Shown here piece by piece: positions 7,393 to 45,225 of a stretch of DNA of 45,225 nt (the stretch's first letter is position 1; each line of letters begins with the position of its first letter). The stretch comes from Brevundimonas sp. (GTDB lineage Bacteria > Pseudomonadota > Alphaproteobacteria > Caulobacterales > Caulobacteraceae): contig NZ_JACESB010000021.1 of assembly GCF_013912005.1 (NCBI RefSeq), positions 1 to 45,225 on the forward strand, in the 5' to 3' direction. The position numbers and the translations under genes were made by a program. The notes below the pieces were generated by a model, which saw nothing but the letters and a program-made list of their open reading frames with translations, ran no database searches and was not told where the DNA came from.

Positions 7393-7431
7393 GGGGGGCG
7401 GCCGGTCACGGACGGGAACAGGAGAGGGCCT

Positions 7432-7902
7432 ATGCCGCGCAAGTTTCTGGTCGTGGTCGACGACAGCCCCGAGTTCGAGGGTGCGCTGCGCTACGCCGCG
7501 CGCCGCGCCCGCTCGACCGGCGGGCGGCTGGTCATGCTGCGGGTGATCCCGCCCGCCGCCCCGGACGCCCACTGGTCCGGGGTGCGGGAGGAGATCGAGC
7601 GGCAGACCCGGGCCGAGGCGGAGGCCATCCTCAACCGCTGGGCCGCCGAGGCGGGAGAGCGCGCCGGCTCGACGCCGATGCTGCTCATCGAGCGCGGCGA
7701 GCCGCAGGACTGCATCCGCAAGGTCGTCGGCGAGGATGCCGACATCAAGATCCTCGTGCTCGCGTCGGGGGAGGGCGGCCGCGGCCCGGGCCCGCTGGTC
7801 ACCGCCCTCGTCAAGCAGGGCGCCGCCTTCACCGGGCGCAAGCTGCCGGTCACCATCGTGCCGGGCGAACTGACCGAGAAGGACATCGAGGACCTCGCCT
7901 GA
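7432..7902 (+). CDS. Universal stress protein (UspA family)
   Basis: Single-domain UspA-type protein of 156 residues, a cytoplasmic nucleotide-binding or signalling protein without a defined reaction. The fold signature is visible: the first beta strand FLVVVDDSPE, a long helix ending RARSTGG, and LVMLRVI. The second half has ADIKILVLASG, followed by the variable ATP-loop region GPLVTALVKQG and the last strand LPVTIVPG. The usual G-x2-G-x9-G-S/T pattern is only partly present, so ATP binding is uncertain. The start at 7432 is supported by GGAGAG 6-11 bases upstream. It follows gdhZ on the same strand and may be co-transcribed with it. Confidence 0.88.
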   Translation: MPRKFLVVVDDSPEFEGALRYAARRARSTGGRLVMLRVIPPAAPDAHWSGVREEIERQTRAEAEAILNRWAAEAGERAGSTPMLLIERGEPQDCIRKVVGEDADIKILVLASGEGGRGPGPLVTALVKQGAAFTGRKLPVTIVPGELTEKDIEDLA

Positions 7903-7940
7903 GCCGCGGCGGGCGGGCCCCTTGAACCGGGCCGGCGCCG

Positions 7941-7956
7941 GGCGCACTTGTGCGCC
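7941..7956. promoter_or_regulatory. Perfect inverted repeat abutting the start codon of the Nfu-type gene
   Basis: GGCGCAC-TT-GTGCGCC, a perfect 7-bp inverted repeat with a 2-base centre, ends exactly at the base before the ATG at 7957. No Shine-Dalgarno sequence fits in this space. It could be an operator for a dimeric regulator or an RNA hairpin limiting initiation. The function is unknown. Confidence 0.4.
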
Positions 7957-8514
7957 ATGTTCATCCAGACCGAGCCCACGCCGAACCCGAACGTCCTGAA
8001 GTTCCTGCCCGGCCGCGCCGTGGCGGCGGAGCCGTGCGAGTTCCGGACGATCGACGAGGCGGCGGCCTCGCCCCTGGCCGAGGCCCTGTTCGAGCTCGAG
8101 GGGGTCAGCGGCGTCTTCTTCGGGGCCGACTACGTCTCCGTCTCCCGGGAGGCCCACGGACCCGGCTGGCCGGCGCTCAAGGCGCCTGTGCTCACCGTGC
8201 TGATGGACCATTTCATGTCGGGCGCGCCCCTGCTCCGCGCCGGCGCTGCGGCCGGCGCGGAGGCCGGCGGCGAGGACAGCGAGGTCGTCGCCGAGATCAA
8301 GGCCCTGCTCGACAGTCGCATCCGACCGGCCGTGGCCCAGGACGGCGGGGACATCCTGTTCGACTCCTTCGACGAGGCCAGCGGCGTGCTGAGCCTGCGC
8401 ATGCGGGGCGCCTGCGCCGGCTGCCCCTCCTCCTCCGCCACCCTGAAGGCCGGGGTCGAGCAGATGATGAAGCACTACGTGCCCGAGGTGACGCGGGTCG
8501 AGCAGGTGCTCTGA
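7957..8514 (+). CDS. NifU/Nfu-type iron-sulfur cluster scaffold or carrier
   Basis: Delivers [4Fe-4S] or [2Fe-2S] clusters to client apoproteins in the cytoplasm. The 185 residues have two domains: an N-terminal Nfu domain starting FIQTEPTPNPNVLKFLPG and a C-terminal NifU domain (about 108-185) with the cluster-binding C153-x2-C156 in GACAGCPSSSATL and the typical VAQDGGDI. The start is the ATG at 7957, because family homology begins at MFIQTEPTPNP. The frame also opens upstream at a TTG (7948), inside a small palindrome. The likely local client pathways, biotin synthase and MiaB, both need Fe-S clusters, but that is a general link and not an operon. Confidence 0.93.
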   Translation: MFIQTEPTPNPNVLKFLPGRAVAAEPCEFRTIDEAAASPLAEALFELEGVSGVFFGADYVSVSREAHGPGWPALKAPVLTVLMDHFMSGAPLLRAGAAAGAEAGGEDSEVVAEIKALLDSRIRPAVAQDGGDILFDSFDEASGVLSLRMRGACAGCPSSSATLKAGVEQMMKHYVPEVTRVEQVL

Positions 8515-8565
8515 GCCGGGCGGGCTGAAACGGATTCGTCCTCGCCAGCCTCGCCGCCGTCGGCC

Positions 8566-9165
8566 ATGATGCGGCCGATGGCGCGATTTGAGACCGACGA
8601 CGAGGCCCGCCGGCTGGGCGACGCGCTCGCCGCCCTGCGGCGCGCGCGCGGCCTGAGCCAGGCCGAGGCGGGCGCGCGCCTGGGGATGACCAGCCAGGGC
8701 TGGGGCCTCTACGAGGCCGGCAAGCGCCCGGGCCTGTTCCGTCCGGACGTGCAGCGCCGGATGACGGCCGCCCTCGCCTCGACGCCCGAGGCGCTCCAGG
8801 CGCTCGCCGCGGGCGCCGACGCGCCCGAAGGCGAGGCCGGCCTTCCCGGCGTGCGCAGCGACGCGGCGGTCTGGGAAGGTCCGCCGCCGGCGGCGCGGCA
8901 GAGGCTTCAGCTCTCCACCGACGAACTGGCGCCGTGGGCGGCGTCCGGCGTGATTCTGGAGTACGCCCCCGGGCAGTGGCCGCGCCGCGACCAGGGCTGC
9001 GTGATCGAAACCGCGGACGGACGGCGGCTGGTGCGACTCTTCGAGCGCGCCGAGGCCGATCTGCTGGTCCTGCGCGGCGGGCCCGGCGGCCTGCAGGCGG
9101 AGGAGCGGCTGCCCCGGGCGGAGGCGCGGCGGGTGGCGGCGGTGGTGGCGCGGATCGAAACCTGA
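8566..9165 (+). CDS. XRE-family transcriptional regulator with an S24-like C-terminal region
   Basis: DNA-binding protein of 199 residues. Residues about 15-70 form a Cro/C1-type helix-turn-helix (LGDALAALRRARGLSQAEAGARLGMTS, then W-GLYEAGKR). The C-terminal third (GVILEYAPGQWPRRDQGCVI, then RRLVRLFERA) resembles the beta-rich fold of LexA/CI S24 proteins. I see no Ser-Lys catalytic dyad, so self-cleavage is not supported. The start is uncertain: ATGs at 8566, 8569 and 8578 are in frame and none has a good ribosome binding site. It is followed by an AT-rich gap and a second XRE gene. A phage-type repressor remnant is possible, but base composition is like the neighbouring core genes. Confidence 0.8.
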   Translation: MMRPMARFETDDEARRLGDALAALRRARGLSQAEAGARLGMTSQGWGLYEAGKRPGLFRPDVQRRMTAALASTPEALQALAAGADAPEGEAGLPGVRSDAAVWEGPPPAARQRLQLSTDELAPWAASGVILEYAPGQWPRRDQGCVIETADGRRLVRLFERAEADLLVLRGGPGGLQAEERLPRAEARRVAAVVARIET

Positions 9166-9204
9166 TGAAACGATATTGTTGCCATGGCTCCAAAAAGATG
9201 AAAC
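9164..9204. promoter_or_regulatory. AT-rich promoter region with direct repeats before the second XRE gene
   Basis: GATGAAAC occurs at 9164-9171 and again at 9197-9204, 33 bases (about three helical turns) apart. They lie in the only AT-rich patch nearby, directly upstream of the XRE gene at 9235. Same-face spacing suggests an operator, perhaps for the encoded regulator itself. This is inference. Confidence 0.4.
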
Positions 9205-9234
9205 ATTGGCGTTGGACATCGGGGAGCAGGCGCC

Positions 9235-9618
9235 ATGGGGAGGAGCAGCCCGGCGGAAGAGGTCGACGCCTATGTCGGCGCGCGGATCAGCCTGCGCCGC
9301 GCCGCGCTGGGCCTGTCGCAGGCGGCGCTGGCGCAGCGGATCGGCGTGAGCTTCCAGCAGGTCCAGAAGTACGAGAGCGGGCAGAACCGCATCTCCGCCT
9401 CGCGGCTGCATCGGGTCGCCCGGGTTCTTGGAACCTCCGTCGAGACCTTCTTCCCGACCGCCGAGGGGCGCGAGATGGAGGCGGGGGGCGTGCAGACCCT
9501 GCGCGCGATCACGGCGACCCGGGACGGGCGCGTGCTGGCCTCCGCCTTTCCCCGCATTCCCGACCCGGCCCTGCGGCAGGCGGTGGCGCGGATCGTCGCC
9601 GCCCTGGCGCGGGACTGA
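9235..9618 (+). CDS. XRE-family transcriptional regulator (small, Caulobacterales type)
   Basis: Helix-turn-helix protein of 127 residues. Residues about 13-70 carry a typical HTH_3 domain with LGLSQAALAQRIGVSFQQVQKYESG, then NRISASRLHRVARVLG. The C-terminal half, including the RIPDPALRQAVARIVAAL helix, is predicted to be helical. It is a clear paralogue of the regulator at 15803 (shared FQQ[VI]QKYE-x-G-x-NRISAS). The start is the ATG at 9235, with GGAG about 10 bases upstream. Targets are unknown. It lies just before tsaB (28 bases), so it may share the tsaB transcript or set its expression. Confidence 0.87.
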   Translation: MGRSSPAEEVDAYVGARISLRRAALGLSQAALAQRIGVSFQQVQKYESGQNRISASRLHRVARVLGTSVETFFPTAEGREMEAGGVQTLRAITATRDGRVLASAFPRIPDPALRQAVARIVAALARD

Positions 9619-9646
9619 AAACGCCCGATCGGGCCAGGAGCGCGCC

Positions 9647-10312
9647 GTGCGGGTGATGGTGATCGACACGGCCCTCGGCCTGTGCACGGCGGGCGTGTTC
9701 GAGGTCGGCGCCGGGGCGGCGCCCCTCGGCGTGCGGTCCGAGGCGATGGCCAAGGGGCACCAGGAGCGGCTGGGCGGGCTGGCCCGGGACGCCGCGGCCG
9801 AGGCCGGCGGGTTCGACCGCATCGAGCGGATCGGCGTGACGGTCGGTCCGGGGTCGTTCACCGGCCTCCGGGTCGGGCTCGCCTTCGCCCAGGGCCTCGG
9901 CGCGGCGCTGGGGCGGCCGGTCGTCGGGATCTCGACGCTCGACGCCCTCGCCGCGTCCGCCGGCGCCCCCGACGTCGCCGCCCTGATCGACGCCCGGCGC
10001 GGGCAGGTCTACGCGCGCTTCTGGCGGGACGGCTCGCCGGACGGCGGACCCCAGGCCCTGTCGCTGGAGGAGGCCGGGCGCCGCCTCGACGCCTGCCCGC
10101 CGGGCACGGTGCTGGTCGGGTCGGGCGCGGCCCTGTTCCCCGACGACGGGCGTCGGCGGCTGGAGCTGGCGGGCCCCGACCCGGCGGCGCTCGCCCGCCT
10201 GACCGCCCAAGGCGACCCGGCGGCGGAGCGGCCTGCGCCGCTCTACCTGCGCGCCCCCGACGCCACCCCGCCCAGCCGGCTGCCCGGCCAGGCCCGGCCG
10301 CCCCGGACGTGA
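9647..10312 (+). CDS. tsaB: tRNA threonylcarbamoyladenosine biosynthesis protein TsaB
   Basis: Non-catalytic partner of TsaD in the TsaBDE complex that makes t6A at position 37 of ANN-decoding tRNAs. TsaB carries the ASKHA fold. Seen here are MVIDTALGLC at the N-terminus, then VTVGPGSFTGLRVGLAFAQGL, and VAALIDARRGQVYARFW, all typical of TsaB/YeaZ; the length of 221 residues is normal. I chose the GTG at 9647 because AGGAG lies six bases upstream and the conserved strand starts at residue 4. Its stop overlaps the GTG start of rimI (GTGA), so the two are translationally coupled. Confidence 0.93.
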   Translation: MRVMVIDTALGLCTAGVFEVGAGAAPLGVRSEAMAKGHQERLGGLARDAAAEAGGFDRIERIGVTVGPGSFTGLRVGLAFAQGLGAALGRPVVGISTLDALAASAGAPDVAALIDARRGQVYARFWRDGSPDGGPQALSLEEAGRRLDACPPGTVLVGSGAALFPDDGRRRLELAGPDPAALARLTAQGDPAAERPAPLYLRAPDATPPSRLPGQARPPRT

Positions 10313-10746
10313 GCGACCTGCCGCCGATGGACCCGGAACGGCTGGCGGAAATCCACGCCAGCGCCTTTGCGGAGCCGTGGGACGCCGCGGCGCTCGCCAG
10401 CCTGCTGTCGCAACCGGGCGTGTTCGTGGTCGCGGCGGAGGACGGATTCGCGCTGCTCCGGCGGGTCGTCGACGAGGCCGAACTCCTGACCGTGGCCGTG
10501 CGGCCCGGGGCCCGGCGCCGCGGCCTGGGCGCCCGCCTCGTCGCCGAAGGCCTGGCGCGGGCGCGGGCGTCGGGCGCGGAGCGGGTCTTCCTCGAGGTGG
10601 CGGAGGACAACGCCGCCGCCCGCGCCCTCTACGCCGGCTTCGGCTTCGTCGAGGCCGGCCGCCGGCGCGGCTACTATCCGGCGGCGGACGGCGGACGCCG
10701 CGACGCCCTGCTTTTGACACTCAACTTCCCGGCCGCGCTTCCCTAG
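10309..10746 (+). CDS. rimI: Ribosomal protein alanine N-acetyltransferase RimI (GNAT family)
   Basis: Acetyl-CoA-dependent N-terminal acetyltransferase; the E. coli protein acetylates ribosomal protein bS18. The 145 residues show the GNAT fold: LAEIHASAFAEPWDAAAL, the ELLTVAVRPGARRRGLGARL motif A with the R/Q-x-x-G-x-G/A acetyl-CoA loop, FLEVAEDNAAARALYAGFGF, and R-RGYYP. The start is the GTG at 10309, overlapping the tsaB stop. The tsaB-rimI pair followed by fur matches the order I know from Caulobacter. The exact acetylation target cannot be read from sequence. Confidence 0.92.
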   Translation: MSDLPPMDPERLAEIHASAFAEPWDAAALASLLSQPGVFVVAAEDGFALLRRVVDEAELLTVAVRPGARRRGLGARLVAEGLARARASGAERVFLEVAEDNAAARALYAGFGFVEAGRRRGYYPAADGGRRDALLLTLNFPAALP

Positions 10747-10773
10747 GGCGACGACGCCCCCTATTCTGACGTC

Positions 10774-11250
10774 ATGGACCGGATCGAGAAACTCTGCGCC
10801 GAGCGCGGCATGCGGATGACCGAGCAGCGCCGGGTGATCGCCCGCGTGCTCTCCTCGGCGGAGGACCATCCGGACGTCGAGGAGCTCTACCGGCGCGCCT
10901 CGGCGATCGATCCGCACATCTCGATCGCCACCGTCTACCGGACGGTGCGCCTGTTCGAGGAGGCCGGGGTCGTCGAGAAGCATGACTTCGGCGACGGCCG
11001 CAGCCGCTACGAGGAGGCGGGCGACGACCACCACGACCACCTGATCGACACCCGGTCGGGGGAGGTGATCGAGTTCTTCGACGCCGAGATCGAGCGTCTC
11101 AAGACCGAGATCGCCGAGCGCCTCGGTTTCGAACTGGTCGGCCACAAGCTCGAACTCTACGGCAAGCCGATCGAGGGGGCGGAGCCCTCGAAGCGGGAAG
11201 GGCTGATCTTCAAGCGCCACGCCCAGCGCGGGGACGACGCGGCGACCTGA
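10774..11250 (+). CDS. fur: Ferric uptake regulator (Fur family)
   Basis: Metal-responsive repressor of 158 residues: winged-helix N-terminus ([29 protein letters not shown], then [19 protein letters not shown]) and a C-terminal dimerisation domain with metal ligands including DDHHDHLID and [11 protein letters not shown]. The CxxC pairs that bind structural zinc in E. coli Fur are absent; the only Cys is near the N-terminus. That is normal for many alphaproteobacterial Fur/Mur proteins. Whether it senses iron or manganese is not decided by sequence; the synteny with the tsaB-rimI and miaB genes favours the Caulobacter Fur orthologue. The start is the ATG at 10774. Confidence 0.93.
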
Positions 11251-11291
11251 TCGCCTTGCCGTCGCCGGTTTCGGCGATCATAAGCCGCAGG

Positions 11292-12664
<1,373 letters not shown>

Positions 12665-12665
<1 letters not shown>

Positions 12666-13660
12666 TGGCGCGTGAGACCGAGTTCCTGGCCCTCGACGAC
12701 GCGGCGCTGCGCGCGGTGATCGGTCCCAACAGCCGCCACGTCGCCCTGATCGAGGACGCCTTCAAGGTTCTGATCGAGGCCCCCGGCGGCGGCGTCACCA
12801 TCAACGGTTCGCCCAAGGACCGCGCCCAGGCCCGACGGGTGGTGCAGACCCTGTCGGACCGGGCCGACACGGGTGCCGAGATCACCGAGGCGGACGTCCG
12901 CACCGCGCTGGGCGCGGCGGTCGCCACGCCGCGTCCCGGTCAGGGCCGCACGGTGCCGGACGCGGTCGCCCTGCCGGTCGGCCGACGCGGCGCCATCGCG
13001 CCGAAGACGGCGGCCCAGGCCCGCTATCTGGAGATGCTGTCGCGCTGCGAGCTCAGCTTCGGCGTCGGCCCGGCCGGCACCGGCAAGACCTTCCTCGCCG
13101 CCGCCTACGGCGCCTCCCTGCTGCGGCGGGGCCAGGTGGACCGGCTGGTCATCACGCGGCCGGCCGTCGAGGCCGGCGAGAAGCTCGGCTTCCTGCCCGG
13201 CGACCTGAACGAGAAGGTCGACCCTTACCTCGCCCCCATCTGGGAGGCGCTGAACGACATCCTCGGCGTCGACGACGTGCGCCGTCGCCGCGACAAGGGC
13301 GAGATCGAGGCCGCCCCGATCGCCTTCATGCGCGGCCGCACTCTCAGCCACGCCTTCATCATCGTCGACGAGGCCCAGAACACCTCGCGGCTGCAGATGA
13401 AGATGGTCCTGACCCGCCTGGGCGAGGGGGCGCGGATGGTGGTCACCGGCGATCCGTCGCAGGTCGACCTGCTCAATCCCCGCGACTCCGGCCTCGGCCA
13501 CGCCCTGCGCATCCTCGACGGGGTGGAGGGCGTGGGCATGCTCCGCTTCGAGGCCTCGGACGTGGTCCGCCACGCCATGGTCGAGCGCATCGTGCGCGCC
13601 TATGACGCCGACGCCTCGCAGCAGCGGCCGCGGGCCGACCTGGAGGACCCCGACCGGTGA
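12665..13660 (+). CDS. phoH: PhoH-like ATPase (YbeZ)
   Basis: Cytoplasmic P-loop ATPase of 331 residues, of the PhoH/YbeZ group whose gene regularly sits next to ybeY and whose product is linked to rRNA/RNA metabolism. Walker A GPAGTGKTFLAAAYG and Walker B AFIIVDEAQN are intact, and TGDPSQVDL follows as the sensor-like motif. The region before the P-loop (about 1-125) is the usual KH-like N-terminus. The start ATG overlaps the miaB stop, and its own stop overlaps the ybeY GTG, indicating one polycistronic message. Confidence 0.94.
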
Positions 13661-14109
13661 TCGAGGTCGAGATCGAGGCGCCGGCCTGGACGGCGGACCT
13701 GCCCGGGGCCGCGCAGACGGTCGAGCGCGCCGCGGCGGCGGCCCTGGGCGGGACCGAGGGCGACCTCGTCGTGCTGCTGACCGACGACGCGGCCGTCCGC
13801 GCGCTGAACGCCCGCTTCCGCGACCGCGACCGGCCGACCAATGTCCTGTCCTTCCCGGCCGCGGCCAGCGCCGCGCCGCACCTGGGCGACCTCGTGCTGG
13901 CGCATGGCGTGTGCGCCGCCGAGGCGGAGGCGCAGGGCAAGTCGCTGGCCGATCACCTCGCCCACCTGACCGTGCACGGCGTGCTGCACCTGCTGGGTCG
14001 CGACCATGAGGACGAGGCCGAGGCCGAGGCCATGGAGGCGGAGGAGCGTCGCATCCTCGCCGGCCTCGGCGTCGCCGATCCGTACCGGGGGGACGGCGTT
14101 GACGCCTGA
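13657..14109 (+). CDS. ybeY: Endoribonuclease YbeY (rRNA maturation and quality control)
   Basis: Zinc-dependent single-strand RNase needed for 16S rRNA 3'-end maturation and 70S quality control. The UPF0054 signature HGVLHLLGRDHEDE, with three His ligands, is complete. The fold markers DDAAVRALNARFRDRDRPTNVLSFP and HLGDLVLAHGV are also present. Its 150 residues are normal. It starts at a GTG overlapping the phoH stop (GTGA). The next gene, lnt, starts within its last codons; the CorC/hemolysin gene that usually sits between them in relatives is not here. Confidence 0.95.
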   Translation: MIEVEIEAPAWTADLPGAAQTVERAAAAALGGTEGDLVVLLTDDAAVRALNARFRDRDRPTNVLSFPAAASAAPHLGDLVLAHGVCAAEAEAQGKSLADHLAHLTVHGVLHLLGRDHEDEAEAEAMEAEERRILAGLGVADPYRGDGVDA

Positions 14110-15691
14110 TCCCGCCCGTCGCCGACGCATGGCCGCCCGCTTCGGGCGCATCGCCCTGGCGCTGCTCGCCGGCGCCGGCGCAGCGCTGGCGCACCCCCCG
14201 TTCGGCCTGCTGCCGGGCCTGCTCGGCTATCCCCTGCTGATGCTCCTCGCCGAGCGCGCCGCCGGCCCCCGCGGGGGGTTCTGGATGGGCTGGCTGGCCG
14301 GCTTCGCCTACTTCTTCATCAGCTGCTGGTGGGTCGCCGAGGCCTTCCTCGTCAACCCGGCCCAGGCCTGGATGGCGCCTTTCGCCGCCTCCCTGCTGCC
14401 GATCGGACTGGGCCTGTTCTGGGGGGCCGCCGCCGCCCTGTACCGCCGCTTCCGCCCCGGCGGCGTCCGGCGCGTGCTCGTCTTCGCCGCCCTGTTCTGC
14501 CTGATGGAGTGGCTGCGCGGCCATGTGCTGACCGGCTTCCCCTGGAACCCCGCCGGGGCCAGCTGGAAGGCGGGCTCGGGGGCGTCCCAGTTCGCCGCCG
14601 TCGCCGGCGTCTACGGCCTCAGCCTCGTCACCGTCGCCTCGGTCTCCGCCCTGGCGCCGCTGCTCGCCCCTGGCGACCGGCGGCGGCGGATCGGCGCGGC
14701 CGTGGCCGGGGGCCTCGCGCTGGCGGCCCTCGTCGTCGGCGGCCAGGTCCGGCTGGCCGGGGCCCGGCTCGAGGCGACCGGGCCGCTGGTGCGCGTCGTC
14801 CAGGCCGACGTGCCGCAGGAGTCAAAGTGGTCGCCGGAGGCCTACCGGGGCATCGTCCAGCGCTATGTGAACCTCACCGCCCGGCCCGGCGCCGCCCGGC
14901 CGGACATCGTGGTCTGGCCGGAGGGCGCCCTGCCGGCCTCGGCCAACCAGGTCTTCGCGCCCGGCGCCTGGGAGGCGGCGGCCATCACCCGCGCCCTGCA
15001 GCCGGGCCAGACGCTGATCGCCGGCCTCGGCCGCGGCGAGCCCGACCCGTCGAGCCCCGAGGGCGCGCGCTACTACAACAGCGCCTTCGTGCTCACCGAC
15101 GCCGGCGCCGCCGGCGTGCGCATCGCCGCCGTCTACGACAAGCACCGGCTGGTGCCCTTCGGCGAGTACCTGCCGGCCGGGGGCGTGCTGGGGGCGCTCG
15201 GGGTGCGCAGCCTCACGCACATGCCGCTGGACTTCAGCCCCGGCCCCCGGCCCGCGCCGGTCTCCATCCCCGGCGCGCCCTCCGCCCAGCCGCTGATCTG
15301 CTACGAGAGCCTCTATCCCGGGTTCACGCCCGGCGCGGCGGGTCGGCCGGGCTGGATCGTCAACATCTCGAACGACGCCTGGTTCGGCCGCACCTCGGGT
15401 CCGGTCCAGCACCTGAACCTCGCCAGCTACCGGGCGATCGAGACCGGCCTGCCGGTGGTGCGCTCCACGCCGACGGGCGTCTCGGCGGTCATCGATCCCT
15501 GGGGGCGGGTGGTCGACGGCCAGCGCCTGGACCCGGGCGAAAGCGGCGTGATCGACGCGCGCCTGCCGCAACCGGCGGCGATCACCCTCTACGGTCGGGT
15601 CGGGGACCTGCTGTTCTGGCTGGGCGTCATCGCCGCCCTGGCCGCCGGGATTCCCTGGCGGCGACTCCGCGGCCGCCGGCGGGCCGCCTGA
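14099..15691 (+). CDS. lnt: Apolipoprotein N-acyltransferase
   Basis: Transfers the third acyl chain to the N-terminal cysteine of lipoproteins at the periplasmic face of the inner membrane. About six N-terminal hydrophobic segments (residues 15-210) are followed by a nitrilase-type domain whose Glu-Lys-Cys triad is visible: E275 in WPEGALPAS, K348 in YDKHRLVPFGEYLP and C401 in LICYESLYPG. A last hydrophobic helix lies at about 500-520. The start is uncertain: the TTG at 14099 has GGGGGGA five bases upstream and overlaps ybeY, while the ATG at 14129 has no ribosome binding site; numbering here uses the TTG. Several lipoproteins in this window (16220, 31891, 40478) are possible substrates. Confidence 0.94.
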   Translation: MTPDPARRRRMAARFGRIALALLAGAGAALAHPPFGLLPGLLGYPLLMLLAERAAGPRGGFWMGWLAGFAYFFISCWWVAEAFLVNPAQAWMAPFAASLLPIGLGLFWGAAAALYRRFRPGGVRRVLVFAALFCLMEWLRGHVLTGFPWNPAGASWKAGSGASQFAAVAGVYGLSLVTVASVSALAPLLAPGDRRRRIGAAVAGGLALAALVVGGQVRLAGARLEATGPLVRVVQADVPQESKWSPEAYRGIVQRYVNLTARPGAARPDIVVWPEGALPASANQVFAPGAWEAAAITRALQPGQTLIAGLGRGEPDPSSPEGARYYNSAFVLTDAGAAGVRIAAVYDKHRLVPFGEYLPAGGVLGALGVRSLTHMPLDFSPGPRPAPVSIPGAPSAQPLICYESLYPGFTPGAAGRPGWIVNISNDAWFGRTSGPVQHLNLASYRAIETGLPVVRSTPTGVSAVIDPWGRVVDGQRLDPGESGVIDARLPQPAAITLYGRVGDLLFWLGVIAALAAGIPWRRLRGRRRAA

Positions 15692-23217: not shown

Positions 23218-24210
23218 TCAGGCGGCCGTCTGGGCCGCCGTCTCCGTCGGCTTCAGGTCCAGCAGGGCGAACAGACGGGCGTCCTCGTCCTGCTCCGGAT
23301 TGGGCGTGGTCAGCAGCTTGCCGCCGATGAAGATAGAATTGGCCCCGGCGAGGAAGCACAGGGCCTGCATCTCCGGGCTCATGGTCTCGCGTCCGGCCGA
23401 CAGGCGCACCCTCGCCTTCGGGCAGACGAGCCGGGCCACGGCCACGGTGCGCACGAACTCGATCGGGTCGATCTCCCCGTCCCGCTTCACCCGGTCGCCC
23501 AGCGGCGTGCCGGTCACCGGAACCAGCGCGTTGACCGGCAGGCTGTCGGGGTGTTCCGGCAGGGTGGCCAGGGCGTGCAGCAGGCCGGCCCGGTCGCGGC
23601 GACTCTCGCCCATGCCGACGATGCCGCCGCAGCAGGTGCTCATCCCCGCCTCGCGCACGTGGCGCAGCGTCTCCAGCCGGTCCCCCCAGGTCCGGGTGGT
23701 CACCACCTCGGCGTAGTATTCCGGTCCGGTGTCGAGGTTGTGGTTGTAGTAGTCCAGCCCCGCCGCCTTCAGCTGGCGGGCCTGGTCCGCCGTCAGCATC
23801 CCCAGGGTCGCGCAGGTCTCCAGGCCCAGCGCCTTCACCCCGGCGATCATCGCCGCCAGCTTCGGCGTGTCGCGGTCCTTCAGCTCACGCCAGGCCGCGC
23901 CCATGCAGAAGCGGTCGGCGCCGCCGGCCCTGGCCGCCATGGCCTCGGCCAGCACCGCCTGGGCGTCCATCAGCTTCCCGGCCTTGAGGCCGGTGTCAAA
24001 GCTGGCGGACTGGGAGCAGTAGCCGCAGTTTTCGGCGCAGCCCCCGGTCTTGATCGACAGCAGCTGGCTCCGCTGCACCTCCGACGGGTCGAACCAGCGC
24101 CGGTGCACCGTGGCGGCCGCGTAGACCAGCTCCATGAACGGCCGGGCGAACAGGGCCTCGACCTCTTCGAGGGTCCAGTCGTGGCGGGGGGTGGAGGGAT
24201 CCTGGGCCAT
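23218..24210 (-). CDS. bioB: Biotin synthase
   Basis: Radical-SAM enzyme that inserts sulfur into dethiobiotin, the last step of biotin synthesis. The SAM-cluster motif C58-x3-C62-x2-C65 lies in [16 protein letters not shown]. Cluster-2 region residues are present ([30 protein letters not shown]), as are [11 protein letters not shown] and the late VRLSAGRE. The 330-residue length is normal. No other bio genes are in the window, so this is an isolated bioB. It is followed by the dnaK promoter region and preceded by a chemoreceptor gene 39 bases upstream on the same strand. Confidence 0.96.
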
Positions 24211-24249
24211 GGGGCGTTCCTGCCCGCCCCGGACCCGCGGTGCAAGGCG

Positions 24250-25728
24250 TCAGGCGGCCCGGGACAGGCGAACGGCCGGACCCGCGTCTTCCAGCCGGAA
24301 GCGGGCCACCGAGGCCGAAAGGCTCTCCGCCTCCTGGCGCAGCGAATGGCTGGCGGCGGTCGCCTCCTCGACCATGGCGGCGTTCTGCTGGGTCACCTGG
24401 TCCATCTGGTTGACGGCGGTGTTGACCTGCTGGAGCCCGGTGGCCTGTTCCTGGGCCGAGGCGGCGATCTCGGAGACCAGGCTGTCGATCTCGGCCACCC
24501 GGTCAACGATCCGCTGCAGCGCCTCGCCGGTCTGGCCGACCAGGCTGACGCCCGAGCCGACCTGGGCGGTCGAGGCGGAGATCAGGGTCTTGATCTCGCG
24601 CGCCGCCTCGGCCGAGCGCTGGGCCAGGGCCCGCACCTCCGAGGCCACCACCGCGAAGCCGCGGCCGGCGTCGCCCGCCCGGGCCGCCTCGACCCCGGCG
24701 TTCAGGGCCAGCAGGTTGGTCTGGAAGGCGATCTCGTCGATCACGCCGATGATCTGGCTGATCTGCTGCGCCGACTGCTCGATCGCGCTCATGGCGGCGA
24801 CGGCGTCGCGGACGACCACCCCCGAGGTCTCCGCGTCGCCGCGGGCGCCGAGCACGACGTCCGCCGCGAGGCGCGCGCCTGCGGCTGTCCTCTTGACCGT
24901 GGCGGTGATCTCGTCGAGCGCCGCCGCCGTCTCCTCAAGACTGGCGGCCTGCTGCTCGGTGCGGCGGGACAGGTCGTCCGAAGCCTGGCTGATCTCGTCG
25001 GAGCCGGAGCGGATCACGCCCGCGTTCTCCGCAACACGGCTCATGGCCTGGCGAAGCGCGCCGACCGCGGCGTTGAAATCGTTCCTGAGGCCCCGGTACT
25101 CCTCGGGGAAATCATCGTCGATGCAGGAGACGAGGTCGCCTTGGGCGAGACCGGCCAGGCTCTTGCCGACGATGGACACGACCCGCGTCTGGCGCGCTTC
25201 CGCCTCGGCGCGCGCGGCCTCGCTGCGGTCCCTCTCTGCGGCGAGAACCTCGAGATAGATCGAGATGGCGAGATCCATGTCGAGCATGACCCGCTGGGTC
25301 AGTTCGGCGATGGCTTCGGCCGTGATCCGGTCGTGCTCGGCGCCGGCAAACCGGGACCGTCGACGGTTCGCGACCCGCTCCACCAGATGGGCGAGCAGAA
25401 CGCTGTAACCGCCGATGTACCAGCGAGGCTCCAGGCCGATGCGGGCGTGAATCTCGCCGATCGTGCGGACGGATGTGGCGTAGCCATGGTCCAGCCGGCC
25501 GTCGATGATCGCGTCCCAGTGCTTGCGCTGCGCGGCGCTGGCGGCGGACATGTGCTGGTCGTCGCGGAAGAAGCGGCGGGTCTCGGGGTACTCCCGGACC
25601 CGGGCGTAGAAGGCGTCCAGCCCCACCGGGACGGCCTCGCGCAGAACGTCGCTGACGGCGCGGTACGACGGCGAGGGCTCCGACAGCCCCATGAAAGCCG
25701 CCCGGCGTTCGAGTTCGTGACCTGACAT
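24250..25728 (-). CDS. Globin-coupled chemoreceptor (soluble methyl-accepting protein)
   Basis: Cytoplasmic oxygen or redox chemoreceptor signalling to CheA/CheW. Residues about 15-165 form a sensor-globin domain. IHARIGLEPRWYIGGY contains the proximal heme histidine (H94), matching the HemAT pattern. A HAMP-like stretch (SLAGLAQGDLVSCIDDDFPEEY) follows at about 195-230, then the methyl-accepting domain with the hairpin tip DEIAFQTNLLALNAGVEAARAG and GRGFAVVASEVRALAQRS. There are no membrane segments. I chose the ATG at 25728 (GGAG five bases upstream) over the GTG at 25764. It has 492 residues. It is divergent from ahcY, and no che genes are nearby. Aerotaxis is inference from HemAT. Confidence 0.9.
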   Translation of the reverse strand: MSGHELERRAAFMGLSEPSPSYRAVSDVLREAVPVGLDAFYARVREYPETRRFFRDDQHMSAASAAQRKHWDAIIDGRLDHGYATSVRTIGEIHARIGLEPRWYIGGYSVLLAHLVERVANRRRSRFAGAEHDRITAEAIAELTQRVMLDMDLAISIYLEVLAAERDRSEAARAEAEARQTRVVSIVGKSLAGLAQGDLVSCIDDDFPEEYRGLRNDFNAAVGALRQAMSRVAENAGVIRSGSDEISQASDDLSRRTEQQAASLEETAAALDEITATVKRTAAGARLAADVVLGARGDAETSGVVVRDAVAAMSAIEQSAQQISQIIGVIDEIAFQTNLLALNAGVEAARAGDAGRGFAVVASEVRALAQRSAEAAREIKTLISASTAQVGSGVSLVGQTGEALQRIVDRVAEIDSLVSEIAASAQEQATGLQQVNTAVNQMDQVTQQNAAMVEEATAASHSLRQEAESLSASVARFRLEDAGPAVRLSRAA

Positions 25729-41764: not shown

Positions 41765-41893
41765 AGAGGTCCTCCCACCGCTTCCAGCCTGCAAACCCGC
41801 GGACCCGCCCGGGGTTCGCTCCGGACGCATTCGGGATTGAGGGCGGCGCGCTCCTGCTGTAGAGGCCATTCCTCCCGGCCCCGGCCGGCGCAC

Positions 41894-41970
41894 GCACCCG
41901 TAGCTCAGCTGGATAGAGCGTTGCCCTCCGAAGGCAAAGGTCACACGTTCGAATCGTGTCGGGTGCGCCA
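41894..41970 (+). tRNA. tRNA-Arg(CCG)
   Basis: A complete cloverleaf of 77 bases: acceptor stem GCACCCG/CGGGTGC with discriminator G and encoded CCA, D-arm GCTC...GAGC, anticodon stem TTGCC/GGCAA with loop CTCCGAA (anticodon CCG at positions 34-36), and T-arm with GTTCGAATC. It reads CGG codons. Its last 17 bases are repeated, inverted, at 44862-44878, and an integrase gene follows, so its 3' end is the integration target. Confidence 0.95.
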
Positions 41971-42144
41971 CTCCTCCTCCAATCGTTGAAAACGCTGCGG
42001 ATTTACCGTCCGCACGACCGTCTTTGGACGATTGCTCCACAACGCTGCTCCACAACCCGGTCGCCGACATCGCGCTAACCTCGTGTGATCGTTCGGAAAA
42101 GCGCAAGCCCAGCGTCTACACAGGCCGTCTACACAACAGTCGCT
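41954..42144 (+). repeat. Left copy of the inverted leader/attachment repeat (191 bases)
   Basis: It is identical to the reverse complement of 44675-44878, except that the right copy has one extra 13-base unit. It begins with the final 17 bases of tRNA-Arg (41954-41970), taken as the attachment core, and ends at the start of the conserved part of the integrase gene. It contains TGCTCCACAAC at 42033 and 42046, and GTCTACAC at 42114 and 42127, both with a 13-base period. These look like arm-type integrase or directionality-factor binding sites; that reading is inference. Confidence 0.9.
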
Positions 42145-43496
42145 CTCATCTGGTCGAAAAGCGGGGTCGCTTTCACTACCGGCGTCGGGTGCCCGACGCG
42201 CTTCGGGAGATCGTAGGGAAGAACGAAGTCTGGAGATCGTTAGGCACGGACAGCCTCACGGTGGCCAAGCGTCGCGCCTTGAGAATTGCTGCGGAGATCG
42301 AACAAGAGTTCGAGGTCGCTCGATCACACGCCGGTCTTCCGGTCGATCAGATCGTGCTCAACGGATTTCCAGCCAAGCCAATAGCACCGATCGGGCCGCA
42401 GTCGGGCATCAGTCTTGGCGACCTCTATGAGGGTTATATGTCTGACCCGACCCGGAACTGGTCGCCAACGACGCGCATGGCCTACCAGACCACGATGCGG
42501 ATCGTTCTGGCGATCCTTGGTCGCGACACCCCGGCTCGGGCCGTCACGCGCGCCATGTGCCGGGAGATGATCGAGGTGTTGCGGTGGCAACCGCGCAACG
42601 CCTCGAAGCTCTTCCCGAACAGCACACCGATGGACATAGCGGATCGCGCCAAGGCCGAGGGGCGAACAGACCTGATCAATGCGGCTAACATAAACACCTA
42701 CCTGAATAAGCTTGGCGCCGCCTTCAATTGGGCGGTGAAGGAGGAGGTGATCGACCGCAATCCCTGCGCGGGCTTGCGGGTGCCCGATCTCGTGGCGCGT
42801 CGTGACAAGCGACTGCCATTCTCCCCAGCCCAACTGACCGCCATTTTTTCGGCGCCGCTCTACACCGGCTGTCGCGACGACGGGCACGGCTATGCCGTGC
42901 CCGGTCCACACCGCCCGAAGAACGCGCGGTTCTGGATTCCTCTGGTGTCGATGTTCGGGGGGCTGCGCCTCAATGAAGCTTGCCAACTGGACGTAGCCGA
43001 CATCCGCAGCATCGAGGACATCGACTGCTTCGTCGTCACCGAGCGGTCGGATGAGGAAGATAACGACAAGCGGCTCAAGACAAGTGCCAGCGAGAGGGTC
43101 GTCCCGATCCACGCTACGCTGATCGATCTCGGCTTCTTGGACTTCGTGGAAGAGCGGCGACGCGCTGGAGAGATCAAGCTTTTCGTCGAGGTAGGAATGG
43201 GGGCGACGGGCTATCGCTCAACCACCTTTTCCGCGTGGTTCCGTCGCTTCGCGATGAAGGCTGGAGCCAACTCACGAAAAACCTGCTTCCACAGCTTCAG
43301 GCATGGCTTTCGAGACGCCATGCGCGAAGCTCGGATCGACCGGGACATCGCCTTGGCCTTGGGCGGGTGGACTGGCCCGAGTGGTTCAGCTTCGGTGTCG
43401 GACGTCTACGGCAGTGGCTATCGGGTGCCGACCCTTAAAGAGGCGATCGACCGGGTTAGTTATCCGGGGTTCGATCCAGACTCCATCAGGGGGTGA
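42024..43496 (+). CDS. Tyrosine recombinase / phage-type integrase with an N-terminal DUF6538-like domain
   Basis: Site-specific recombinase that would act at the tRNA-Arg 3' end. A DUF6538-like arm-binding domain begins about residue 41 ([35 protein letters not shown]), followed by a core-binding SAM-like region (130-250). The catalytic residues are all present: R315 (GGLRLNEAC), K352, H423-x-x-R426 (HSFRHGFR), W449 and the nucleophile Y462. The start is odd: TTG at 42024 is the only ATG/GTG/TTG in frame before the conserved region, and the first 40 residues are encoded by the repeat. G+C is visibly lower than in the core genes. It converges with the endonuclease gene 24 bases away. Confidence 0.9.
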
Positions 43497-43520
43497 CCTC
43501 TTGGAGACCCTTCGCCCATC

Positions 43521-44636
43521 TCACGCGAAAAGCCGCGAAGCGGTGCCGAGATCGGTGTCTCGCAATAGGCGGACACCGGTTTTCGCTGCCAAGTTCTCGG
43601 CAGCTTTGGTGTAGCCGCTTGATGAAATCACGGCACCATAACTAGCCCCGTAGAATCGTGCTCCTGCGAACACCTCTTGGACGGCTGTGACACCAATGGG
43701 CCGTCTATGGTTCTTACATTGGAAGGCGATCAACTTTCCATTGATTGTGGAAAGGATGTCCACGCCGTTATCCGCAGAAGCGGAAGTTATCTCGGCAGGG
43801 TAGCCGAACGAGCGGATCGTTTCTAGGCAACTCTGCTCAAACGCTGTCCCCCCAGACAAGGCCGTTGGTGCCCGTTCCAACAGCGCAAGCTGCGCGAGTT
43901 CATCTCCCCATTCGGCACCTGCCTCTCTCCGCGCAAACCGCGAGAGTTCTCTTGCTAGACCGTCGTGGTTTGGCTCGCCCCAGAAGCTGTCACTCTGGCA
44001 GCGCGACACTATGGACCCGATCCGAAGCTTATTCCTCCGATAGAAGTCGGCGATCTCGGCTATGACCAGCCACGGCCTCAACAGACTTCTGACGCCCAGA
44101 TCGATCTGATCCCCGAGAACATCCGGCAAGGGGCCGCCGTGCGGAAAACGCCTTCCGAAGTGATGCTCAAGGCTCGGCTCGGCTGCCAAACCAATGAGTT
44201 CATCTCCGGTGTTCCAGAGGCTGTATGGAGCGACGCCGATAGATTTCTCGATCTCCTTTCCAATTATCGCATGTGCCTCGCTTCTAATTCTGCCGTATGT
44301 GGACCAGAATGTCTCGGGGTGCCTTATGATGGGTTGGATCAAAAAATACTTTCGAATCGACTCTTCGGCTGTGTAGCTGCTCAATGCGGCCGCAAGTCTA
44401 TCCATCTCGCCGCCGAAGCCGATGAACACTTTCGATGCTTTTAGGCGAGCGCGAGCCGAAGCCGAAACATCTTGAGCGACTCGCTGCATTCCATCTCGCC
44501 CCCCGCTCCGCTGGAACCCCAGTGAAATGGTCTCTGGATGGCTTATCATCCACGCCGCGATCGCCGCGTCCATCGACGGTGATGGTTCAGGCTCCCAGCG
44601 GAAGGGTGGGTAGATGTTCGGGTCGTTAACGGTCAT
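43521..44636 (-). CDS. Mrr-type restriction endonuclease with an unrecognised N-terminal half
   Basis: A protein of 371 residues. The C-terminal domain (about 262-371) is a PD-(D/E)xK nuclease of the Mrr_cat type: E267 in GTAFEQSCLETIRSFGY, D293 in ADNGVDILS, Q306-C-K308 in LIAFQCKNHRRPIGVTAVQEV, then YGAVISSSGYTKAAENLA. No methyltransferase is beside it, so a modification-dependent (type IV) or other DNA-targeting defence role is likely by inference. Residues 1-260 match nothing I recognise; they look mostly helical, with SLLRPWLVIAEIADFYRRNKL near 185-205. The ATG at 44636 is preferred to the GTG at 44648. The leader upstream is the same repeat that precedes the integrase. Base composition is low-G+C like the integrase. 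Confidence 0.85.
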   Translation of the reverse strand: MTVNDPNIYPPFRWEPEPSPSMDAAIAAWMISHPETISLGFQRSGGRDGMQRVAQDVSASARARLKASKVFIGFGGEMDRLAAALSSYTAEESIRKYFLIQPIIRHPETFWSTYGRIRSEAHAIIGKEIEKSIGVAPYSLWNTGDELIGLAAEPSLEHHFGRRFPHGGPLPDVLGDQIDLGVRSLLRPWLVIAEIADFYRRNKLRIGSIVSRCQSDSFWGEPNHDGLARELSRFARREAGAEWGDELAQLALLERAPTALSGGTAFEQSCLETIRSFGYPAEITSASADNGVDILSTINGKLIAFQCKNHRRPIGVTAVQEVFAGARFYGASYGAVISSSGYTKAAENLAAKTGVRLLRDTDLGTASRLFA

Positions 44637-44674
44637 GGCTGCCCCCACTCGCCTTCACTCCAGTATCGTTTTCT

Positions 44675-44878
44675 AGCGACTGTTGTGTAGACGGCCTGTG
44701 TAGACGGCCTGTGTAGACGCTGGGCTTGCGCTTTTCCGAACGATCACACGAGGTTAGCGCGATGTCGGCGACCGGGTTGTGGAGCAGCGTTGTGGAGCAA
44801 TCGTCCAAAGACGGTCGTGCGGACGGTAAATCCGCAGCGTTTTCAACGATTGGAGGAGGAGTGGCGCACCCGACACGA
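44675..44878 (-). repeat. Right copy of the inverted leader/attachment repeat (204 bases)
   Basis: Read on the minus strand, it repeats 41954-42144 exactly with one additional 13-base unit: three GTCTACAC (plus-strand 44685, 44698 and 44711) against two on the left. It contains a 17-base tRNA-Arg 3' end copy (44862-44878) without the rest of the tRNA. It lies directly upstream of the endonuclease gene, 38 bases before its ATG. Confidence 0.9.
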
Positions 44879-45173
44879 GACCGGGCGTGGGCTTGGCTCT
44901 GCGGGATTTGGGTGTCGTCGGTCAAGAGCGCGCTCCATCGTTCTGGAGCGTCCCAGCCATCGTCAGGAGAGCGATTCAGTCAACGCTCTGGAGGGCGATC
45001 TCTCGACGCTTGCGACCGATCCTGTCGTCCGGTGGCGACGCTCTCCTGACGGTCTCCCTCGGCCGAGGCACGGAGCGTCTTGATCGTCGATGTCGGCCAT
45101 GGGAGCAGAGCGGCTCTGCGGCTGGCGACGAAAGAGGCGCCGAGGCTCTGATTTCAGCGGGGAGAAGGTCAAC
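44879..45173. other. Non-coding stretch with nested inverted repeats at the contig end
   Basis: No convincing gene is present in these 295 bases. CGTCAGGAGAGCG (44961-44973) is perfectly inverted at 45039-45051. CGCTCCA-N6-TGGAGCG lies at about 44931-44950, and GCAGAG-CGG-CTCTGC near 45104. The short open frames here lack ribosome binding sites. It could be the regulatory region of a gene starting at 45174, or the far arm of an attachment site. Confidence 0.45.
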
Positions 45174-45225
45174 GTGTGGAAGCTGGACCACTTCGTTCCT
45201 GCGTCCGATGTTGATGCCGAGGAGC
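45174..45225 (+). CDS. Possible start of a gene cut off by the window end
   Basis: A GTG at 45174 has GGGGAGAAGG five to fourteen bases upstream, and the frame stays open to the window end: 17 codons beginning MWKLDHFVPASDVDAEE. It is too short to assign. The ribosome binding site is the only support. Confidence 0.3.
   Translation, partial: MWKLDHFVPASDVDAEE

Follow-up and report, generated by a model that had tools for sequence, protein, structure and literature searches.

The 45,225-bp contig NZ_JACESB010000021.1 of Brevundimonas sp. (assembly GCF_013912005.1) carries near its right end a tRNA-linked integrase and nuclease gene pair, which we analyze here as part of a genomic island with an inverted internal attachment site. 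The window, i.e., the whole stretch of DNA that was analyzed, is this entire contig (C14), one of the 42 that make up a draft genome of 2.89 Mb. The integration target is a tRNA-Arg (CCG) gene at 41894..41970 on the + strand, located with ARAGORN and by comparison with the empty sites of the relatives G010 and G006. Downstream of it lies a tyrosine integrase of 490 aa without an internal stop (42024..43496, + strand, from the open reading frame list and Pfam), which matches DUF6538 (1.4e-19), Phage_int_SAM_5 (5.4e-7), and Phage_integrase (3.2e-7). The residues R315, K349, H423, R426, W449, and Y462, which we take to be the catalytic residues of the tyrosine integrase family, are all present, and the true start of the protein may lie 3′ of 42024, beyond the repeat arm described below. 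The cargo gene, convergent with the integrase, encodes a nuclease of 375 aa (43521..44648, − strand, from the same two sources), whose residues 267–367 match Mrr_cat (Pfam, E=4.9e-18) and include the pattern E271/D297/Q310xK312, presumably the Mrr_cat catalytic motif. The Mrr_cat assignment is sound. The G+C content is 59.3% in 41971–44878 versus 71.9% in 1–41893. A sequence-only reading of this DNA had named the tRNA-Arg, the complete integrase, the convergent Mrr-type nuclease, and the low G+C, and all of them are found at the places it gave.

The two genes are enclosed by a 182-nt inverted repeat without mismatches (41954–42135 and 44697–44878, 100% identity) that starts within the 3′ end of the tRNA gene, its first 17 nt being this 3′ end (TCGTGTCGGGTGCGCCA). 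A 20-mer of the repeat occurs in two copies in the window, compared to 0.00 expected from shuffles. The repeat was not described in the sequence-only reading, although the end coordinate given there, 44878, is that of the repeat. The outer copy (41954..42135, + strand) is the attL arm, composed of the 17-nt core, which by the empty-site comparison is the last 17 nt of tRNA-Arg (41954–41970), and a P′ arm with direct repeats. The inner copy (44697..44878, − strand) consists of an inverted P′ arm and a core at 44862–44878. The identity of the arms runs 32 nt further in another register (44675–44706), owing to an extra 13-nt repeat unit; these 13-nt direct repeats of the P′ arm (42113–42144 and 44675–44706) are present in two copies at attL and in three at the inner site, and are possibly the arm-binding sites of the integrase. 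Beyond the inner repeat there are only 347 bp before the contig stops at 45225, within a conserved open frame known from relatives, the first 17 codons of which are seen at 45174..45225 (+ strand). The DNA of this small-frame region, which belongs to a region that we call T, matches locus L034 with 84.5% identity over 71 bp.

The right end of the island is found on another contig of the same genome, C37, whose start (C37:1–91) has window positions 44879–44950 in reverse as its first 72 nt and next to them the core, after which chromosomal DNA sets in. In the empty-site relatives G010 and G006, the left flank of the window and C37 from base 73 onward are continuous, overlapping by the 17-nt core, and attL is therefore assigned to 41954–41970 and attR to C37:73–89, in direct orientation. 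The inner copy cannot be attR, because the integrase leaves direct, and not inverted, repeats at the ends of its element. Compared with attR and attL, the inner copy and its neighboring DNA (44697..45225), which read T-arm, core, and P′ arm on the − strand, form a complete inverted attP, with the P side as at attR and the P′ side as at attL. Features of a tRNA-integrating island are thereby present, namely direct 17-nt cores at both ends, continuous empty sites, and a complete integrase adjoining attL, and the integrase and nuclease genes are best read as the left module of a larger island that is cut by the contig end. The remainder of the island is absent from the assembly, the full attP pair being a prediction for the window. 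In a search of plasmid DNA with the whole region, the tRNA was the only region matched among the matches listed (20 of 139 records).

The sequence-only reading had regarded the locus as a mobile defence unit of 2.9 kb with two genes only, extending from the tRNA to 44878. The tRNA-linked mobile element and the probable defence nuclease stand; the stand-alone unit does not. The 182-nt repeat would resemble the terminal inverted repeats of such a small element, yet the contig continues 347 bp past the repeat into another frame, and the direct-core attR lies on C37 after T sequence. Moreover, in the nine relatives with a located attR end, the island has the integrase module and its inverted arms on the left and continues through a larger segment up to attR, the cargo varying from one to another. 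We consider the stand-alone unit refuted, i.e., highly improbable.

A single contig covers at least 8 kb beyond the inner site in 16 of the elements with an inverted P′ arm, and these were traced further. Nine of them have a second, nested inverted repeat, T, which runs from the inner core to attR and whose two copies are 98.1–100% identical. T is 2347 nt long in G154, 1878 nt in G009, 1355 nt in G072, and 1408 nt in G101, all of them single-contig genomes; it measures 781 nt in L130 (Sphingobium lactosutens), 2887 nt in G157 (Azospirillum canadense), 1048 nt in G158 (Erythrobacter sp. WG), 1572 nt in G160 (a Novosphingobium metagenome-assembled genome), and 374 nt in G163 (Sphingobium arseniciresistens). 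The order in complete relatives is tRNA, core, P′, integrase and cargo, inverted P′, inverted core, T, larger segment, inverted T, core, and chromosome. In eight of the nine T elements, a 20-nt search gives the cores as +,−,+, and the inner site combines the left flank of attR with the right flank of attL, which makes it an attP by sequence; the exception is G163, where the cores share no more than 14 nt and this search did not recover attR. The circular form of each T element would thus contain two identical inverted copies of attP that split the integrase half from the larger half. The length of the element is 6.0 to 25.3 kb in eight of the nine, the smallest being G163 (6.0 kb) and L130 (7.2 kb), and the element in G101, which adjoins another insertion, has ~16.4 kb between its outer cores. 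The G+C content is lower than that of the flanks in 6/8 T elements, G160 and G163 being the exceptions.

A second recombinase is encoded by T in seven of the nine elements. According to Pfam, it is a serine resolvase in G154 (5.6e-41) and G072 (1.3e-38) and a tyrosine recombinase in G157 (7.2e-19); by eye, serine resolvases are recognized in G009, G101, and G158, with a short form in G160. The T of L130 has a recombinase fragment only, and that of G163 nothing clear. Next to the inner attP, T also encodes a conserved small protein of ~92–108 aa without a Pfam match (L034 7595–7891, L029 2623–2949, L028 10025–10303, and, truncated, the window at 45174–45225). It occurs in nine of 131 genomes of the genus and is present twice, inverted, in G154.

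The integrase was searched for in 60 relatives and in its own genome, and among the 131 genus genomes, its own included, it or more distant kin are found in 34 at E≤1e-30. A scan of genome contigs with an alignment of 14 integrase sequences gave 44 loci, and in 29 of them, from Caulobacterales, Sphingomonadales, and Azospirillum, an inverted repeat flanks the integrase, the identity of the arms reaching 96% or more in 26. Where the contig permits, the arms begin at or close to a tRNA 3′ end, and the targets comprise eleven anticodons (Arg CCG/ACG, Ala CGC/GGC, Val GAC/CAC, Gly GCC/TCC, Leu CAG, Phe GAA, and Thr CGT). The inverted arm is missing in the other 15 loci, of which seven lie on contigs that stop inside int or at most 720 bp after it (L134, L140, L144–L147, L149) and eight have some room to show an arm (L114, L119, L129, L133, L138, L151–L153). 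Among the arm-less loci, L151 and L153 are distant relatives and L152 is a partial match. One of the four loci on virus contigs has an inverted arm. These counts also bear on an assembly artefact, i.e., a fold-back or a collapsed repeat at the contig end, which the proximity of the contig end to the repeat and the many family draft contigs ending nearby could evoke. The layout is, however, present in the single-contig genomes G154, G009, G072, G101, and G135 and recurs in 29/44 records, and the arms of the window differ in repeat copy number just beyond the 182 nt. We reject this explanation, its probability being practically negligible.

As a control, none of 14 more distant integrases, 13 of them with a tRNA gene, shows the repeat within 1.5 kb on each side, compared to 8/16 loci when the same cut is applied to the family. 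An integrase tree was built from the 54 of 64 rows that have at least 320 aa, which dropped L111, L122, L150, and L152 as well as 6 of the 14 controls. In this tree, the 44 family rows fall into a single group with a support of 92/96, which is below the mark of the tool, and the root is drawn only for display. Since the family rows group together and the repeat-less rows are scattered among them, the tree suggests that the repeat layout is an old trait with losses rather than a repeated accident.

The two P′ arms of an element are 98.9–100% identical in ten Brevundimonas elements, compared to 36–93% between elements; only the aligned part of the repeat was compared, and G135A was left out of the ten. 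Because the arms are nearly identical within elements and diverged between them, we infer that the paired arms in most elements must regularly recombine or be copied from each other.

Between the arms, the gene content varies. The integrase half has no other genes in L112, L113, L116, and L086, and a small cargo in others. A PADLOC search with ten chosen cargo proteins gave four strong matches (dCTPase in G154, 1.7e-146; ThsB-type TIR in L128, 8.7e-67; GajA/Old-type ATPase in L125, 2.9e-20; SoFic in L083, 3.9e-121) and two weak ones (an AlbA_2 protein in L085, and L130), with no match for the cargo of L135, L127, L117, and L150. In Pfam, the cargo of L135 matches HNH and that of L120 matches DUF2971, and L124 has an HTH-IrrE protein. 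The inner module often holds a defence-type gene, and the Mrr nuclease of the window is one of many interchangeable cargos between the integrase and the inner attP. A defence role of the nuclease is plausible, because the cargos of other modules include defence genes. By eye, arsenic-type frames are seen in L139 (11354–14131) and L141 (6897–9904), and the cargo bay is therefore not restricted to defence.

Long arms with a variable content could also be explained by homologous recombination. In such a scenario, the arms would be a platform for exchange, at which the cargo and the segment between the T copies are swapped among islands, host gene conversion would keep the arms alike, and Int would make no use of the inner site. 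Long arms would be good crossover targets, and the cargo changes widely (dCTP deaminase, ThsB-type TIR, OLD/Gabija-like ATPase, SoFic, AlbA_2, HTH-IrrE, Mrr) while the arms and the integrase are retained. However, the cargo-less L112, L113, and L116 keep arms of 100% identity, and some cargos recur, such as a 170-aa protein in L034 and L142. Swapping would, in addition, require no full core or attP, but the T elements examined have kept an inner core with little or no damage. We consider an exchange platform rather unlikely.

The explanation that we prefer makes use of both attP sites. From the layout, the arm identity, and the recombinase genes, all of which are observed, we infer a cycle of excision, inversion, amplification, and resolution. 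The integrase would excise the island to give a circle with two identical inverted attP sites, and recombination between these would invert one half of the circle relative to the other. If this takes place when one site has been replicated and the other has not, the replication forks would chase each other in a double rolling-circle replication, as for Flp/FRT, and the circle would be amplified together with its defence genes. The second recombinase encoded by T would then cut the multimers to monomers, and the whole process would keep the paired arms identical. For the yeast 2-μm plasmid, PMC3147054 describes 599-bp inverted repeats that hold FRT; it also states that inversion by Flp/FRT can start double rolling-circle replication and that such replication makes inverted repeats recombine strongly.

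The architecture, a tRNA-integrating island with two inverted attP sites, is judged from these comparisons to be almost certainly correct. Amplification by inversion is a possibility on the doubtful side, and architecture and mechanism jointly, i.e., a tRNA-integrating defence island with two inverted attP sites and inversion-driven amplification, come near to an even chance without reaching it. Still broader is the suggestion that these elements are a widespread class of islands, a bacterial, chromosome-integrating amplifier of the 2-μm/Flp type with two attP sites, a resolving second recombinase, and an exchangeable defence bay, which we put forward tentatively and with some doubt.

Several observations weigh against the preferred explanation. 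T is absent from seven of the 16 traced elements (G135V, G135A, G079, G086, G155, G156, G159), and three of these, G135V, G086, and G155, still have P′ arms of 100% identity. Lower arm identities are found in L118 (87.8%), L139 (91.5%), and L125 (71.8%), and the arms of G135A are 88.8% and 97.7% alike. Visual inspection of the larger segment in five elements brought up no recognizable replication-initiator gene, for which L130 and G163, the smallest complete elements, leave scant room. In the genome of the window itself (G000), neither the 92-aa T protein nor a 330-aa protein of the larger half of G154, G009, and G072 was found. Finally, among the 28 loci with the repeat that could be placed, 27 have the 5′ end of the integrase toward the target, 26 with a tRNA found at that side and L143 through a tRNA-like end (the 29th, L122, starts inside an arm). 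The sole reversed locus is L112/G163 of Sphingobium arseniciresistens, and an Rfam search of the L112 flank gave no matches. With free inversion a 1:1 ratio would be expected, and the fixed orientation therefore means either that a post-integration state is frozen or that no inversion takes place in the integrated form.

The fixed orientation can be accounted for, unlike with free inversion, by a locking switch, in which the integrase flips its own half without any amplification. It would be expressed when facing T and, when facing the tRNA, would have its promoter severed and be frozen, such that the inner attP would be a device for self-silencing after integration. At attL, the tRNA gene does stand in the place of T upstream of int. 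On the other hand, the single promoter-like match in 41800–45225 (0.7 expected) is located in the nuclease gene and not in the 347 bp of T, and a switch leaves both the long T repeat of nine elements and the near-perfect identity of most arms unexplained. We regard the locking switch as unlikely, though it deserves to be kept in mind.

A comparison with known systems helps to place the proposed cycle of inversion and amplification. Like other tRNA-integrating islands, the present family has an integrase adjoining the tRNA, direct 17-nt cores that restore the tRNA 3′ end, a low G+C content, and defence cargo; it differs from them by the extra complete inverted attP and by one or two nested long inverted repeats. 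The yeast 2-μm plasmid shares with these elements a tyrosine recombinase (Flp, acting at FRT) and two target-bearing inverted repeats that split the circle into unique halves, and identical inverted site-bearing repeats dividing the element are found here in nine of the 16 traced elements. In contrast to the plasmid, the present islands integrate in bacterial tRNA genes, their T often encodes a second recombinase, and no replication gene is recognized by eye. Equal isomers are not found either, given the one orientation of 27/28 loci in the integrated state. The arrays of SGI1 are reported to have an attP sequence inside the integrated array; these arrays are tandem by the title of PMC2297512, whereas the inner attP of the present islands is inverted and lies within a single element.

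In RIT elements (recombinase in trio), three tyrosine recombinase genes stand side by side, flanked by inverted repeats. The present module likewise has a tyrosine recombinase gene with flanking inverted repeats, but there is one recombinase instead of three and the target is a tRNA gene, and the module is accordingly not an RIT element. The window nuclease resembles Type IV Mrr restriction enzymes in its C-terminal Mrr_cat domain with the expected motif, and differs from them in that its N-terminal ~260 residues are unmatched and that no partner methylase or helicase is present in the window module. No integrated island with an inverted internal attP was met in the open full-text literature, as judged by titles and abstract openings, with preprints and most subscription journals outside this scope, which makes it weak evidence of novelty. 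The component parts are of known kinds, and the variant that they form here is possibly a class of its own should the proposed life cycle hold true.

The N-terminal part of the nuclease had been called unrecognizable in the sequence-only reading, and this is borne out here: residues ~1–260 have no match in Pfam, NCBIfam, PADLOC, or PHROGs. Among PDB sequences, nothing lies below E=0.12, and none matches residues 1–240 at E≤1. A recognizable N-terminal DNA-recognition domain, as expected for Type IV Mrr enzymes, is likewise not found in the four libraries or among PDB sequences. Of 385 genomes from the class, its own included, 11 match the nuclease, ten only via the C-terminal domain and the eleventh being the window. 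Virus contigs contain no relatives, and none of 154 matching plasmid records spans 80% of the query, the widest among the 15 matches listed covering residues 172–367. A single-sequence AlphaFold2 model has a pLDDT of 39.8, too low for use. Residues ~1–260 are thus considered an orphan region, as judged by these searches, which speak neither for nor against the new sensor domain suggested in the sequence-only reading.

The larger half of the islands contains, by eye, type I restriction-modification frames in G154 and G101, frames for a DNA methylase and for Vsr-like and HNH proteins in G009, and a helicase-type cluster in G072. A gene pair encoding 330 and 124 aa without Pfam matches is present in the larger half of G154 (L080 1065–2421), G009, and G072, and relatives of the 330-aa protein are found in 22/131 genus genomes, some only 26–33% identical. 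In G160 (L168/L169 joined), three near-identical 1.4-kb copies at 7775–9195, 13714–15146, and 23587–25019, within and beyond the island, are perhaps an insertion sequence.

Some loci of the family carry more than one module. In G101 (contig 1, 640773–692723), four core copies (+,+,−,+) are spread over 52 kb at one tRNA-Ala gene, which suggests stacked islands. L082 (G135, 7349–13163), an element at tRNA-Ala, has three arms and, besides a full integrase gene, a partial one; it appears to be a partly duplicated or stacked module. On an IMG/VR contig, L154 (6479–7819) has a second integrase element directly adjoining, with a tRNA-Ala-type core. This locus was considered as an excised circle, its core and P′ arm lying beside T-like DNA rather than a tRNA; a different integrase just upstream indicates a tandem insertion, and it was not counted.

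Draft assemblies break inside these islands, such that the left module may be mistaken for an element of two genes, which is what happened with the window, and the inverted att arrangement provides a simple sequence signature by which such islands can be found. For integrases that target tRNA genes, the usual assumption is that a single attP suffices and that two direct att sites result. The conservation in this clade of a third, inverted site, with arms mostly identical within each element and with cargo, often defence genes, between the sites, points to a different life cycle. If inversion drives amplification, these islands would represent a bacterial double rolling-circle amplification by a site-specific recombinase, in which the dosage of the defence genes would go up on excision.

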